Below, piece after piece: positions 1 to 5,135 of a DNA stretch of 5,236 bases (position 1 is the stretch's first letter; each line of letters begins with the position of its first letter). The stretch covers positions 1 to 5,236 of the forward strand of contig JAFUDW010000177.1 of the NCBI GenBank assembly GCA_017464225.1, read 5' to 3'. A model generated the notes under the pieces. The model worked only from the letters and a program-made list of their open reading frames with translations, was not told the DNA's origin and made no database searches. The stretch comes from Clostridia bacterium. GTDB lineage: Bacteria > Bacillota_A > Clostridia > Christensenellales > Aristaeellaceae. The position numbers were made by a program, and so were the translations under genes.

Positions 1-778
1 CGCCAGGGATGGCGAACACGTTTTCAATGATCACGGTGCCGCCCAGCATCATGCCCATACCGTTGCCCACGATGGTGATGATAGGGATCAGGGCGTTGGG
101 CAGAGCGTGCTTGAAGAGCACGGTCTTGCTGGAAAGGCCCTTGGCCTTGGCAGTGACGATGTAATCGGAGCGGATAACCTCCAGCATGGAGGAGCGGGTG
201 TGGCGCGCCTGGGAGGCGATGCCCGCGAAGGAGTTGGCGATGCAGGGCAGGATGAAGGAGGCGATGCCGTTGGCCACGCCGCTGGTGGGCAGCCAGCCCA
301 GGTTGACGGCGAAGATCAGCACCAGCATCAGCGCCAGCCAGAAGGCCGGGATACTGACGCCCACCAGCGCCAGGAACATGCTGACGCGGTCCCACAGGCC
401 GTTATGATGCGTGGCGGCCATAATGCCCAGGGGCGTGCCCACAAACACCTGCAGCGCCATGCACAGCAGCGCCACCACCAGGGTGTACTGCATGCGCTCC
501 ATCAGGCCGGCGAACACCGAGGTGCCGAATTTGTAGGAGGTGCCCAGGTCGAACTTGATGAAGGTTTCGTAGAGATAGCGGCCCAGCCGCACGATGTAGG
601 GATCATTGAGGCCCATTTCCTCGCGCTTGGCGGCCAATTCCACCGCCGAGGCGCTGGGGCCCAGCAGGCTCTGCGCCGGGTCGCCGGGGCAGATGTACAT
701 GATGGAGAAGATCAGGATCGCGATGCCCAGCATGACCGGGATCATCCACAGCAATCGCTTTCCGATGTATCGGATCAT
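1..778 (-). CDS. ABC importer permease, DppB/OppB family (C-terminus cut off by window edge)
   Basis: Inner-membrane permease subunit of a dipeptide/oligopeptide/nickel-type ABC importer. I translated it by hand from the minus strand: 259 residues are present and the reading frame is open to the left edge. It begins MIRYIGKRLLWMIPVMLG, the usual N-terminal transmembrane helix (about residues 10-30), followed by CPGDPA at 30-35. Further hydrophobic segments lie near 98-120, 133-160, 172-190 and 228-252. The cytoplasmic EAA-type loop that contacts the ATPase is clear at about 206-232 (YIVTAKAKGLSSKTV followed by HALPNALIP). Family members usually have 300-340 residues, so roughly 50-70 C-terminal residues lie outside. 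The ATG at 776-778 has an AGGAG 9 nt upstream. It lies downstream of the binding-protein gene on the same strand and probably belongs to the same operon. The second permease and the ATPases are expected further left. Family assignment is firm; the transported compound is unknown. Confidence 0.93.
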   Translation of the reverse strand, partial: MIRYIGKRLLWMIPVMLGIAILIFSIMYICPGDPAQSLLGPSASAVELAAKREEMGLNDPYIVRLGRYLYETFIKFDLGTSYKFGTSVFAGLMERMQYTLVVALLCMALQVFVGTPLGIMAATHHNGLWDRVSMFLALVGVSIPAFWLALMLVLIFAVNLGWLPTSGVANGIASFILPCIANSFAGIASQARHTRSSMLEVIRSDYIVTAKAKGLSSKTVLFKHALPNALIPIITIVGNGMGMMLGGTVIIENVFAIPG

Positions 779-786
779 AGAGCGTA

Positions 787-793
787 TCTCCTC
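787..793 (-). promoter_or_regulatory. Ribosome binding site of the permease gene
   Basis: The minus strand reads GAGGAGA here. Its AGGAG core ends 9 nt before the ATG at 776-778, which fixes the start of the permease. The adjoining bases (AAGAGAGG on the minus strand, 790-797) are complementary to the CCTCTCTT within the neighbouring hairpin at 810-856. Confidence 0.7.
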
Positions 794-809
794 TCTTGAT
801 AAGACGAAT

Positions 810-1058: not shown

Positions 1059-2567
1059 TTAATATTCGCAGGCGCCGGGCAGGATCTGGCCGCGGAAGCA
1101 GGTCACAGCCTTGGAAACCACGGTGGTGTGGGCCAGGTTGTTCACAGCGGCCAGCAGGCCGTACTCGTAGCACTGTTCCTTCAGATACTGATGGAAGGCA
1201 TCCATGTTCTCGGGGGTGTTGTCGGCCATAGCAGCTTCCAGCAAGCTCTGCAGGGTGTCGTCCACCACGTAGCCCACGGTCTTGCCATAGGTCTGGTCGC
1301 GGCGGTCCAGGCTCAGCTTCCACACGTTGGTCAGCAGGTTGGAGGAGCCGCCCTCATCCAGCATCAGGTCCCATTCGTCGTTCTCGGTGTACTTGTAGTC
1401 GCCAAACAGCGCGGAATCGTAGGGGATCAGCTCCAGGTTGATGCCAAAGTCCATCAGGTCGGCCTGCATGGCGGTGGCCATGGCGGTGTTCTGGTCGCTG
1501 ACGGCGTAGATCAGGCGATAGGTGGCGTTGCTGACGCCCGCTTCGGCGAAGAGCGCGTTGGCCTTATCGGCGTCATATTCGTAGTATTCCTCATCGTCCC
1601 AGGCGGAGACGTAGTCGGGATACTTGTTGTTGCCGATGGTCTTGCAGTGCAGGGCTACGCCATCATAGGCGAAGAGGATCAAATCTTCCACGTCGATGCC
1701 GTAGGCGATGGCCTGGCGCAGCTTGACATCCTGGAACACGTGGGTGTTGAAGATCAGGTACTTGGAGGTGTTATCGGGGATCTGGGTCACGCTGTAGCCG
1801 CCCTCGGCGGTGAAATCGGCGATGTAGGCGGAATCGATGAAGGCGGAGATATCGATTTCCTTGGTCTTGAGGGCGTTGGTCATCTGCACGGCGTCGGGGA
1901 TGATCTTGAAGGTGACCTTATCCACGTTGTGCTTGGAGGTGGAGGGAGACAGGCTTTCATCTTTCTGCCAGTAATTGCCGGTGTACTCGTACACGATGTT
2001 GGAGCCGGTCTGGTAGCTGGTCACGCGATAGGGGGTGGTGGTGACAGGGTCGGTGGCCATCTGGTCGGGAGAGGCTTCATAGGCGGCCTGAGTGACGATG
2101 GGGCATTCCATCAGCAGGCTCTCCAGATCGCCGGAAGCCAGCGCGGTGAAATGGAACCGGGCCACGTAATCGCTCAGCACTTCCACGTTGTCCACAGCGC
2201 TCAGCTTGGGCAGGTTGCCCAGGCTCTTGGCGGTGTCAAAGCAGAATTTGATGTCATTGGCGGTCAGGGGGTTGCCATCCTGATCCTTGATGTAGTCGTA
2301 GATTTCCACATCGTAGGTCAGGTCGTCCACGGGGGTCAGTTCCTTCATCAGGCAGCCGACGAACTTATCGCCGTCTTTGACCATCAGCATTTCATAGGTG
2401 GTAAACAGGATACCGATGCGGCCCAGGCCCATGCCCTGGAAGGGGCCGATGTTGCCGGGATCGCCCATCAGGCCAACCACGATGGAAGCGCCCTGTTCGG
2501 CGGAAGCGAAGCTCGCCATGGAGAGAACCATGATCAGAGCCAGGATGAGAGCCAGAAACTTCTTCAT
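1059..2567 (-). CDS. ABC transporter substrate-binding protein, family 5 (peptide/nickel type)
   Basis: Extracytoplasmic binding protein of an oligopeptide/dipeptide/nickel-type importer; it presumably delivers ligand to the permease encoded next to it. It has 502 residues, normal for SBP_bac_5. Residues 1-23 form a signal peptide (KK, hydrophobic core, then ASA before E24). There is no lipobox cysteine, unlike most Gram-positive binding proteins. Family landmarks are GNPLTANDIKFCFD (98-111), TPYRVTSYQTGSNIV (178-192), and the hinge-region signature DVKLRQAIAYGIDVEDLI (280-297). The ATG at 2565-2567 has AAAGGAGG 8 nt upstream. A promoter and dyad operator lie 110-190 bp upstream. The stop codon falls at the edge of the inverted-repeat element that follows, so the C-terminus (GACEY) may have been set by that insertion. 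Ligand is not predictable; the broad family also binds heme, sugars and opines. Confidence 0.94.
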   Translation of the reverse strand: MKKFLALILALIMVLSMASFASAEQGASIVVGLMGDPGNIGPFQGMGLGRIGILFTTYEMLMVKDGDKFVGCLMKELTPVDDLTYDVEIYDYIKDQDGNPLTANDIKFCFDTAKSLGNLPKLSAVDNVEVLSDYVARFHFTALASGDLESLLMECPIVTQAAYEASPDQMATDPVTTTPYRVTSYQTGSNIVYEYTGNYWQKDESLSPSTSKHNVDKVTFKIIPDAVQMTNALKTKEIDISAFIDSAYIADFTAEGGYSVTQIPDNTSKYLIFNTHVFQDVKLRQAIAYGIDVEDLILFAYDGVALHCKTIGNNKYPDYVSAWDDEEYYEYDADKANALFAEAGVSNATYRLIYAVSDQNTAMATAMQADLMDFGINLELIPYDSALFGDYKYTENDEWDLMLDEGGSSNLLTNVWKLSLDRRDQTYGKTVGYVVDDTLQSLLEAAMADNTPENMDAFHQYLKEQCYEYGLLAAVNNLAHTTVVSKAVTCFRGQILPGACEY

Positions 2568-2684: not shown

Positions 2685-2713
2685 AGTATAATGAATCTTT
2701 TGGCCGGAATCAA
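2685..2713 (-). promoter_or_regulatory. Sigma-A-type promoter of the binding-protein gene
   Basis: On the minus strand a -35 box TTGATT (2713-2708) is followed after 17 nt by the -10 box TATACT (2690-2685). The inferred start is near 2678, leaving a leader of about 110 nt. The -35 box is part of the 46-bp module shared with the hydrolase promoter, and a dyad lies directly upstream of it, which is an activator-like position. Confidence 0.75.
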
Positions 2714-2753
2714 ACCGTTTTTCGCGGTTATTGTCGCGAAAAATGGGATAATC
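2708..2753. promoter_or_regulatory. Operator module 1: 26-bp dyad next to the binding-protein promoter
   Basis: The core dyad is TTTTTCGCG-N8-CGCGAAAAA (2718-2743) with perfect 9-bp arms. Its centre lies about 52 bp upstream of the inferred start. The flanks AATCAAACCG and TGGGATAATC are also conserved in module 2 at 4083-4128: 41 of 46 positions agree. The LysR-family regulator encoded at 4245 is the obvious candidate ligand (inference); the dyad contains a T-N11-A pattern. No T-tract follows on the minus strand, so it is not a terminator for the gene ending at 2765. Confidence 0.75.
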
Positions 2754-2764
2754 ACAGCTGATCG

Positions 2765-3997
2765 TTACCGCTTCATCATAGCGGCGGCCTCTTTGACCAG
2801 CATCTCCGCTGCCCCCGGCGCGAAGGGGGAATTGATGGCTTCGTACATGCAGCGGTCATAGGCGCTTTGGTCCGCCATGTATTTCGCGCCGCCGTTGATC
2901 ATGGTGGCGGCCAGGGTGATGGGATAGGGGCTGTGGTCCTGAAGCTGCTTCAGCGTGGGATAGGTCAGTTCCGGCTTGACGCCGATGATGGCCAGATCGC
3001 CCAGGGCAAACAGCTCGATGGTCTGCTCCTTCTCTCCATCCAATTCCCATTCGCAGGAATGGGTGGGTTTCAGCTCCCGCAGGTTGCGGTTCATTTTCTT
3101 GGCCGGGGCATAGAAGGAACGGAAAGCGGTTTTAACTTGTCCGTTTAATGCTGCGCCGTCATTCCGCAAAGCGGATATAACTTCGGTCGCCAGCTTCTGC
3201 CCCTGCGTTTCGGCCAGGGGGATGCCGTCCTCGTGCAGGTCGATTTCCTGATAGCCGCCCTGCCCATCCGGGGCATATCCCTTGGCCCGCTTGACGGGGG
3301 CCTGATCGCCCGCCGCGCCGATCATGAACATGACCGTTGCGCCGGGATAGCGCTTTTCCAGCTCCGCGCAGGCAATGCCCGTCAGGTCGCCGGATACGCA
3401 TTTGCCGTCCGCCGCTCCGGTGCCGTCCAGGACAGAGGATTGCACATTCGCGTGAACCAGCAGCGCCTTGACCTGATCCTGCCGGGTCACCTTGAGCACC
3501 GTCAGCGTTTTGTCGCTGGGGCCCTTGCCGCCGCAGCCGATCCACCAACCGTCGGGCAATTCGATATCCCGGCTGGCCATGACGCTGGTTTCTCCCTGAT
3601 GCAGGGTCAATTCGCTGTCCTGCGCTTCCTGCTTAGCCTGCCATACCGCCGCGCGGATGGCGTCGCCCAGGGCGCGCTGCAAAAGCGTGCGCTTTTCCTT
3701 TTCTTCCTCCGTTTTCAGAACGAAATCCGGCAGGATGTGGGGCGCGGAGAAGGTATGCGTCGCCGCCACCCAGACCTGGTTCTTCTCGATCCCCAGCAGG
3801 ATGGCCGTTTCCTTTTTGATGCGCGCGCATTCCTCATCCGACAGGGAGGTCATTTCGATGGACACCAGGGCGAAGGGGGTTTCTTCGTCGATAAAAAATA
3901 CCCGTACATATAAAGGATGCGCCTGCTTCACGAATCCTTCCGTGGGCAAGAAACCCGCGGGGAATTCCATTTCGCAGCGGCCAATTCCGATTTTCAT
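2765..3997 (-). CDS. Neutral/alkaline ceramidase-like N-terminal domain protein (putative metal-dependent hydrolase)
   Basis: Protein of 410 residues matching the neutral/alkaline non-lysosomal ceramidase-like family by motif. These are ATHTFSAPH (79-87), LLVHAN with H183, SGDLTG (202-207), GAAGDQAP (227-234), GDLAIIGVKPELTYPT (333-348), NGGAKYM (368-374) and SPFAPGAAE (390-398). By comparison with characterised bacterial neutral ceramidase, H81, H183, E343 and Y373 are the likely zinc ligands. The GDVSPN hexapeptide that carries the nucleophilic serine reads GDQAPV here, with alanine, so true ceramidase activity is doubtful. It has no signal peptide and lacks the C-terminal domain of secreted ceramidases, suggesting a cytoplasmic enzyme. 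The start at 3997 is chosen because AAGGAGG lies 8 nt upstream. A longer frame to 4084 would begin upstream of the -10 box. It lies upstream of the importer genes on the same strand. Substrate unknown. Confidence 0.82.
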   Translation of the reverse strand: MKIGIGRCEMEFPAGFLPTEGFVKQAHPLYVRVFFIDEETPFALVSIEMTSLSDEECARIKKETAILLGIEKNQVWVAATHTFSAPHILPDFVLKTEEEKEKRTLLQRALGDAIRAAVWQAKQEAQDSELTLHQGETSVMASRDIELPDGWWIGCGGKGPSDKTLTVLKVTRQDQVKALLVHANVQSSVLDGTGAADGKCVSGDLTGIACAELEKRYPGATVMFMIGAAGDQAPVKRAKGYAPDGQGGYQEIDLHEDGIPLAETQGQKLATEVISALRNDGAALNGQVKTAFRSFYAPAKKMNRNLRELKPTHSCEWELDGEKEQTIELFALGDLAIIGVKPELTYPTLKQLQDHSPYPITLAATMINGGAKYMADQSAYDRCMYEAINSPFAPGAAEMLVKEAAAMMKR

Positions 3998-4005
3998 ATT
4001 CGTCG

Positions 4006-4012
4006 CCTCCTT
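4006..4012 (-). promoter_or_regulatory. Ribosome binding site fixing the hydrolase start
   Basis: The minus strand reads AAGGAGG 8 nt before the ATG at 3995-3997. This site, together with the promoter at 4059-4088, argues against the in-frame upstream ATG at 4084. Confidence 0.85.
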
Positions 4013-4058
4013 CAATTTTGTTTGATCCGGTACACATTTTATCATTTCTGACAGCATC

Positions 4059-4088
4059 ATTATAGCGGGAATGCTTGGCAGCAATCAA
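4059..4088 (-). promoter_or_regulatory. Sigma-A-type promoter of the hydrolase gene
   Basis: On the minus strand the -35 box TTGATT (4088-4083) is followed after 18 nt by a perfect TATAAT (4064-4059). The inferred start is near 4052, giving a leader of about 55 nt to the ATG at 3997. The -35 box and operator have the same arrangement as in front of the binding-protein gene. Confidence 0.78.
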
Positions 4089-4128
4089 ACCGTTTTTCGC
4101 AGGTATTGTTGCGAGAAATGGGACAATC
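4083..4128. promoter_or_regulatory. Operator module 2: second copy of the 26-bp dyad
   Basis: The core is TTTTTCGCA-N8-TGCGAGAAA (4093-4118), the same length and spacing as module 1. Relative to module 1 the innermost arm bases changed on both sides (G to A and C to T), which preserves the symmetry; one arm position is mismatched. The flanks AATCAAACCG and TGGGACAATC match module 1 almost exactly. Centre is about 53 bp upstream of the hydrolase start site, and about 70 bp from the LysR promoter -35 box, so it could serve the divergent regulator too. Confidence 0.75.
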
Positions 4129-4174: not shown

Positions 4175-4203
4175 TTGACATTTTTTCACTTTAGCGCTAT
4201 AAT
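4175..4203 (+). promoter_or_regulatory. Consensus sigma-A promoter of the LysR-type gene
   Basis: TTGACA (4175-4180), a 17-nt spacer, and TATAAT (4198-4203) match both consensus hexamers exactly. The inferred start is near 4210, about 35 nt before the TTG start codon at 4245. Confidence 0.85.
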
Positions 4204-4244
4204 TATTGCAGAAACCAGAATAATGAACGTAAAGAGGGATATAC

Positions 4245-5135
4245 TTGGAACTGAAATACATCCGTGAATTTGTATCGTTAGCGGAAACAGGCAGCTATTT
4301 TGAAACAGCGGAACGGTTGTTTATCACCACATCTTCCCTCTCCCGCCACATCAAGGCGCTGGAAGAGGAACTGGGCATGCCGCTGTTTGACCGCACGACC
4401 CGGAAAGTGGAACTGAACCGCCACGGCCGGCTGTTTTTGCCTTATGCCAAGCAGTTCGTCAAGATCGACGACGAGTGCGCTATGGCCTTTGACGAGGAAG
4501 TGATGTACTCCAAAGGGGCCATCGGCATCGGCTCCATTCCCATGATGAAAGCGTACAATATCAGCCGGATTTTACAGCAATACCGACAGAATAACAAAAA
4601 CGTGATCATCAACATCCATGAAGCCGATTCCACCCCGCTGGCCGAAATTCTGCGCAAAAGCGAAATCGACTTTGCTTTCCTGCGCAACAAGCACATTTCC
4701 GTGGAAGAGTTTGAAACCATCCCCATCTCCCAGGATCACCTGGTGGCGGTTCTGCCCAAAAATCACCCCTTGGCCCGGCAAAAAAAGATCACCATCGACC
4801 AGCTTGAAAACGAATCCCTGCTGCTGATCAGCAAGAATTCCTATATGTACCGGCTGTGCACCGACCTGTGCCGATCAGCGGGATTTCAGCCGAAGGTAGT
4901 TTTCACCAGCCAGCGGGCGGAAAACCTGGTGGAATTGATCGGCCAGGGCACCGGCATCGCCCTGCTCATGAGCAAACCCGTAGCGCCTATTCTGCCGGAC
5001 AACCTGACCCTGGTGGATATCGAGCCCCGGGTCACCCCCACCGTTTTCCTGGCTTACCTGAAAGACCGGAAATTCAACACCGCCTGTAAGCGATTCCTGG
5101 TATTGGTGAAAACGGTACCCTTTGAAGAAGGATAA
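4245..5135 (+). CDS. LysR-family transcriptional regulator
   Basis: DNA-binding regulator of 296 residues, normal LysR length. The N-terminal winged helix-turn-helix covers about 1-60 (MELKYIREFVSLAETGSYFE, then AERLFITTSSLSRHIKALEEELGMPLFDR), followed by a linker helix to about 88. The effector-binding domain (about 90-292) contains GAIGIGSIP (91-99), EIDFAFLR (140-147), HLVAVLPKNHPLA (165-177) and GTGIALLMSKPVAP (235-248). Translation starts at TTG: GAGGG lies 6 nt upstream, an in-frame stop at 4230-4232 excludes a longer form, and the TTG codes for the expected first residue of the HTH. The gene is divergent from the hydrolase gene, the classical LysR layout, so hydrolase and importer are the likely targets (inference). 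Effector unknown; effector-binding sequence alone does not reveal it. Confidence 0.95.
   Translation: MELKYIREFVSLAETGSYFETAERLFITTSSLSRHIKALEEELGMPLFDRTTRKVELNRHGRLFLPYAKQFVKIDDECAMAFDEEVMYSKGAIGIGSIPMMKAYNISRILQQYRQNNKNVIINIHEADSTPLAEILRKSEIDFAFLRNKHISVEEFETIPISQDHLVAVLPKNHPLARQKKITIDQLENESLLLISKNSYMYRLCTDLCRSAGFQPKVVFTSQRAENLVELIGQGTGIALLMSKPVAPILPDNLTLVDIEPRVTPTVFLAYLKDRKFNTACKRFLVLVKTVPFEEG

Follow-up and report, generated by a model that had tools for sequence, protein, structure and literature searches.

Two genes of the 5,236-nt window (the whole stretch of DNA analysed here), which comes from a relative of rumen clostridia, are preceded by nearly the same sequence, which raises the question of whether that sequence is an operator, where its centre lies and which protein reads it. 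The comparisons below make it quite likely that the product of the LysR-type gene at 4245-5135 recognises a 23-bp dyad, that an inducer would let it activate both operons, and that a third box would repress its own gene. The regulator (4245..5135, plus strand, 296 aa) carries HTH_1 and LysR_substrate domains (67.4 bits against a cut-off of 26.6 and 125.7 bits against 28, respectively), and its gene has a predicted promoter with a 12/12 match to TTGACA-N17-TATAAT (4175..4203, plus strand). It diverges from a putative target, a hydrolase gene (2765..3997, minus strand, 410 aa), in an arrangement kept in relatives. Also on the minus strand are an ABC transporter substrate-binding protein (SBP) gene, assigned to SBP_bac_5 by domain and family profiles (1059..2567), and an ABC transporter permease gene of the DppB/NikB kind (2..799), which runs off the window end. 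The hydrolase scores 15.5 bits against Pfam PF04734 (Ceramidase_alk), below the cut-off of 32.1. The best PDB matches of its structural model (pLDDT 93.7) are neutral ceramidases (4wgk, 2zws and 2zxc; TMq 0.74-0.76), and on this model the protein has a neutral-ceramidase fold and is predicted to be a ceramidase-like enzyme.

A shared module before the hydrolase and SBP genes

The segments 2708-2753 and 4083-4128 are identical at 41 of 46 positions, whereas the best 46-mer pair per shuffle agreed at 27-33 positions in 20 Markov shuffles of the window; the likeness of the two copies reaches 54 bp at 87%. Read on the minus strand, both copies end in TTGATT, with TATACT 17 bp on for the SBP gene (promoter 2685..2713; TTGATT 2708-2713, N17, TATACT 2685-2690) and TATAAT 18 bp on for the hydrolase gene (promoter 4059..4088; TTGATT 4083-4088, N18, TATAAT 4059-4064). 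The first-pass annotation had taken this duplication for an operator-promoter module serving both genes, and its retention in relatives bears this out. Alignment of 44 hydrolases led to 33 loci in named genomes (L denotes a locus, G a genome), and 29 module sites from 19 sources (not 19 genomes, since L005 and L007 share one) aligned without gaps. The module occupies both gaps in 10/19 sources (L001, L002, L004-L010 and the window) and also in G089, the single assembled gap in L003 and L014, and only the regulator-hydrolase gap in L012, L013, L015, L017 and L025.

The first site of L004 (CGATTTG) fell outside the search word and was added to the 29 by hand, while one chance match in L017 and an autoregulatory match in L056 were left out, as was L011, a weak match whose nearby regulator is 28% identical. 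Sixteen of the 33 loci (L016, L018-L024, L026-L033) gave no site to the 29; none has a regulator homologue close to its hydrolase, and their upstream regions lay outside the module scan. Regulator searches of the families of G002 and G008 matched 9/250 and 8/200 genomes and added only L056 and L057, and a search of the genus of G002 (1/29 genomes matched) gave no new locus.

A 23-bp box at a fixed distance from the promoter

Across the 29 sites the lasting element is a 23-bp box, roughly ATTRTYNCR-N5-YGCAAYAAT (alignment columns 4-26), whose centre lies 28 bp before the start of the -35 element and about -63/-64 from the predicted start. The invariant columns are T6, C11, G19, C20, A24-T26, A36, G40, T42-G45 and T47. 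In the window, box 1 (ATTATCCCA-TTTTT-CGCGACAAT; 2730..2752, minus strand; PWM 34.6) is centred at about -63 from the predicted start of the SBP gene and box 2 (ATTGTCCCA-TTTCT-CGCAACAAT; 4105..4127, minus strand; PWM 33.3) at about -64 from that of the hydrolase gene, both being themselves among the 29 PWM sites. A LysR recognition site is expected near -65, and on the predicted starts boxes 1 and 2 stand at this recognition position. A conserved AAAAACGG (columns 34-41) lies upstream of the -35 box of the SBP gene (2715..2722, minus strand) and, in the same alignment, of the hydrolase gene (4090..4097, minus strand), and is presumed to be an activation-site or A-tract element. Near -35, AAAACGG-TTTG is nearly invariant across the aligned sites and a dyad is unclear. 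A -10 element (at least 4/6 matches, with A2 and T6) follows the module at 17-18 nt in 29/29 sites, against 12% in shuffled downstream sequence.

In the 11 distant sites the box pairs at 68/99 positions, more than any other centre with 9-bp arms and a spacer of 3-9. Covariation within it is weak because the best-paired columns are nearly invariant, and what the box shows is less covariation than the conservation of a sequence with partial symmetry. A fairly strict word, ATTRTYNCR-N5-NGCAWNAAT, fits 18/29 sites, box 1 not among them, and strict T-N11-A fits 9/29; within the window only a third box has the latter, box 2 reading C-N11-A and box 1 C-N11-G.

A third box over the regulator's own promoter

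Run along the window, the box profile returned scores of 34.6, 33.3 and 23.9, against a best of 10.5 in 30 shuffled windows. The last belongs to box 3 (ATTATTCTG-GTTTC-TGCAATAAT; 4202..4224, minus strand; PWM 23.9), which played no part in making the PWM and was absent from the first-pass account; the profile built with the relatives revealed the site. Centred at about +3 from the regulator's predicted start, it covers that start and the end of the regulator's TATAAT, is without the AAAACGG-TTGATT part, and is presumed to be an autorepression site. A box lies within 25 nt of the regulator start in 8/18 loci (the window and seven others), and one shared box stands 41-52 nt from it in 5/18; no box was found near the regulator start in 5/18 (L004, L009, L012, L017 and L048). 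The centres of boxes 2 and 3 are separated by 97 bp; this spacing is 96-97 bp in the window and five loci and 109 bp in L007. These loci are too few to judge helical phasing between the two boxes, and none is claimed.

Regulator and boxes across genomes

The LysR-type protein at 4245 had been named as the natural candidate to bind the module, and we retain it as the predicted binder. Among 250 genomes of the family of G002, a regulator was found in 9 (E 1e-70) and a site in at least 14 (E 1e-3), the scan having scored up to 24 candidates per genome under stricter filters, so that weak sites may be missed. A test on all sites (9/9 against 5/241) is circular because the model was trained on the home sites of those genomes, and only sites outside the two home gaps were therefore used; these occur in at least 5/9 genomes with the regulator and at least 3/241 without (Fisher p 8.7e-7, a value that is too small because the genomes are related). 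The three genomes with an outside site that were counted as lacking the regulator are G013, which has a regulator fragment, G170, where a search at E 1e-20 found no homologue of the regulator, and G208, where the only homologue is 34% identical. In a set of 30 genomes, the box pattern with at most one mismatch gave 67 matches against 3 for the reversed pattern, palindromes being counted on both strands; five of the 67 fell in three of the 12 genomes (G021-G032) that lack a match to the regulator at E 1e-70.

Residue 29 of the recognition helix varies with the box: T accompanies A in box column 22 (23 sites) and Q accompanies T (6 sites). The residue was read from the regulator for 25/29 sites, and for the four sites of L001, L003 and L014, where the regulator lies outside the locus, the clade was assumed by kinship; because the match rests on two clades, it perhaps reflects one change. 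Of three further sites in G089 (Q29), two fit the rule and the weak L134 site does not. Residue 29 adjoins the residue-30 position, which touches the thymine of T-N11-A according to the accessible part of one report (PMC12609908).

The boxes could instead be real and have another LysR-type protein of the same genome as their main binder, such as the paralogue beside the box in G002 and G006. A second LysR-type gene does lie near boxes (L117:4874-5848 and L120:10188-11105), and G170 and G208 have sites without a close regulator orthologue. However, it is the window's regulator that adjoins the home sites, a box stands in that regulator's own promoter, and its residue 29 varies in step with the box; we consider a different main binder unlikely.

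The centre of symmetry

The first-pass annotation had placed the operator on another dyad, TTTTTCGCG-N8-CGCGAAAAA (2718-2743). On this rival reading a protein would grip its arms directly, or the dyad would at least be a real extra contact in the close clade. This dyad exists, with 9/9 pairs in 2708-2753 and 8/9 in 4083-4128, and it is the best-paired centre in the 18 close sites (129/162, against 112/162 for the 23-bp box). However, its pairs number only 34/99 in the 11 distant sites, 30/72 in eight autoregulatory boxes and 43/126 in 14 further sites, and its pattern, TTTTTCGYR-N8-YRCGARAAA, proposed as conserved, matches 5/29 sites only. In the same 14 sites the 23-bp box pairs at 95/126, a count not wholly independent because these sites were picked by a model scoring these columns (the sites of L119 and L121 are orthologues and almost identical, and those of L125 and L126 score weakly as full modules, at 33.7 and 29.7). 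The paired change of the inner arm bases is seen between the window copies, whose five differences comprise the two of this pair, one that breaks an arm pair, one in the spacer and one outside; it is no rule in relatives, where columns 21/30 are complementary in 11/29 sites against 6.5 expected from the columns, a slight excess. The described overlap with the -35 box holds for the 46-bp segment, which contains TTGATT, but not for the dyad, which ends 4 bases before it.

Single boxes between divergent genes place the centre in the same way. In G004, G005, G006 and G007, CGGTTTG (once CGATTTG) is equidistant on both sides of the box, with promoter-like elements on both sides (L118:3664-3730, L119:18339-18405, L121:1774-1840 and L123:12807-12873), and the symmetry centre of these back-to-back sites therefore falls on the 23-bp box and not on the earlier centre. 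Some single boxes thus appear to face two divergent promoters; in G007 one of the two flanking open frames, if begun at its first start codon, extends into the site. The arms of the earlier dyad correspond to two stretches: the central spacer of the box together with the first bases of its right half, and the region ahead of -35 that contains the A-run. In the close clade the beginning of the right half, CGCGACAAT, is repeated as CGCGAAAAA 12 bp farther on, within the A-run region (CGCGA), and may be a third half-site, as proposed for the activation site of GalR in the accessible text of PMC9942251. As the operator itself the earlier dyad is rejected, the lasting centre lying 10.5 bp farther from the promoter, and direct gripping of its arms or a real extra contact is quite improbable. 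A dyad read from two copies alone can mislead: here comparison with relatives shifted the centre of symmetry by some ten bases.

Age of the module pair

We assessed how the two modules relate to their counterparts elsewhere. The order of regulator, divergent hydrolase, SBP and permease is kept in L002, L004-L009, L012, L013, L015, L017 and L025, and in L010 as far as the contig reaches; six of the ten nearest loci (L001-L010) are recorded as coming from samples of the rumen or gut of deer, sheep or goats. Between the window and L002 the hydrolase sites agree at 45/48 and the SBP sites at 47/48, whereas the window's own two sites agree at 41/48. Orthologous sites are thus closer than the window's own pair, so the pair predates the split from L002 and is no fresh duplication. 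Over ten loci the contrast is slight, mean identity being 35.1 and 37.0 for the same gap between genomes, 36.3 between the two gaps of one locus and 34.3 across both. The two copies appear to have been maintained as distinct orthologous sites from a time before the split of the nearest relatives, and their 46-bp likeness would arise because both promoters carry the same box-to-35 module. To read the pair as a dispersed repeat, or as a recent duplication, of no regulatory meaning is scarcely credible, even though the window does carry a dispersed palindromic repeat (805-1045): a sequence-only model of the 29 sites, run on 12 genomes, found few strong module matches per genome, all 29 sites precede a -10 element and the nearest module copies are orthologous across genomes, which refutes the repeat reading at the sequence level in these genomes.

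Further sites and a candidate regulon

Further sites of the same geometry stand before other genes in related genomes. In G007 a subtype-B tannase-family esterase lies directly downstream of a site (L123:12896-14581; NCBIfam NF041556, 355.3 against a cut-off of 300, best stretch residues 44-312; E 3e-67 to a PDB tannase). Its relatives belong to the same operon or adjoin a site in G002, G004, G005, G006 and G008, the scored module pointing away from the tannase-family gene in G002 and G008. Other genes beside sites encode DUF554, GH3 and GH31 proteins, LysR paralogues, proteins without a Pfam match and two alpha/beta-hydrolase-like proteins with Pfam scores just below the cut-off. The G170 site accompanies a dihydroxy-acid-dehydratase-like enzyme and the strong G208 site a flavocytochrome-c-like reductase (L136:3247-5115), the second gene in its row.

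The likely regulon points to ester and amide hydrolysis, linking a ceramidase-like enzyme of no assigned substrate with tannase-family esterases under an apparent single switch. We propose tentatively, with more doubt than confidence, that gut clostridia have a LysR regulon not described before. In it a single regulator, acting through one box, would respond to a plant ester by turning on a peptide-type importer, glycosidases and a set of ester and amide hydrolases (the ceramidase-fold enzyme, the subtype-B tannase-family esterase and the alpha/beta-hydrolase-like proteins); single symmetric boxes would fire two promoters, and the residue-29/base-22 change would have altered the regulator's DNA specificity between two clades. 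A literature search, covering few subscription papers and thus no proof of absence, found no LysR-controlled tannase regulon of this kind.

Proposed mechanism and known LysR-type systems

From the boxes, their fixed geometry, their conservation and the further sites in regulator-bearing genomes, all read from the sequence, we infer binding by this regulator, the direction of control, a tetramer mechanism and an inducer. The boxes near -63/-64 of the hydrolase and SBP promoters would be recognition sites for the LysR-type protein, and the conserved AAAAACGG beside TTGATT would be the meeting place of the tetramer's second DNA-binding pair and polymerase. With inducer, the protein would activate the hydrolase and SBP operons together; at box 3, over the -10 and start of its own gene, it would repress that gene. 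In the standard LysR model, as given in the accessible parts of three reports (PMC12609908, PMC11739112, PMC6628147), a tetramer sits on the recognition site and its other half shifts toward -35 on inducer, a scheme that box centres at -63/-64 and an A-run beside -35 appear to fit. The circuit would be of a long-known kind, the operator and wider gene set being newly mapped by comparison. The analysis thereby gives a regulator of uncultured rumen-type bacteria an operator that is precise in sequence and spacing and open to test.

The CutR/cutB1-cutB2 system of Mycobacterium sp. JC1 is alike in its divergent LysR-type gene, identical promoters before two targets, inverted repeat near -60 and second related repeat upstream of the regulator gene. 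However, in the accessible part of that report (PMC12609908) CutR has T-N12-A, a dimer and other genes, its activation site was not found, and its two repeats lie about 180 bp apart, against 97 bp for boxes 2 and 3 here. At PbenA and PcatB, the BenM/CatM tetramer shifts on inducer between an upstream Site 1 with T-N11-A and a Site 2 whose A-run overlaps -35, a similar layout; in the portion of PMC6628147 available the half-sites are ATAC-N7-GTAT, whereas the second site here is only a nearly invariant AAAACGG-TTTG without a clear dyad. GalR of Pseudomonas putida, a gallate-induced LysR-type activator, resembles the present case in that one protein activates two promoters, its recognition site is predicted to be of the T-N11-A type, and the right half of that site recurs in an activation site close to -35; it differs in its CTATA-N9-TATAG-like half-sites, gallate ring-cleavage genes and pseudomonad host (PMC9942251, available text). 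The Gram-positive LysR-type proteins CidR, GltC and AlsR are three of the regulator's top four NCBIfam matches, and the regulator is no member of these equivalogs (162, 157 and 146 against cut-offs of 415, 350 and 430).

Minor observations

At L009:1242-3093, next to the hydrolase locus, stands a tandem pair of LysR-type genes whose identity to the window's regulator is 67% and 49%. The nested palindromic element at 805-1045, which separates the SBP and permease genes, contains a 23-nt perfect inverted repeat (810-856) and a second hairpin (1002-1040). It is a REP-like dispersed repeat, with 75 matched pieces in G001, 22 in G002 and 2 in G006 (palindromes counted on both strands) and zero matches in G003, G004, G005, G007 and G013, which suggests that the window's organism is nearest G001/G002.
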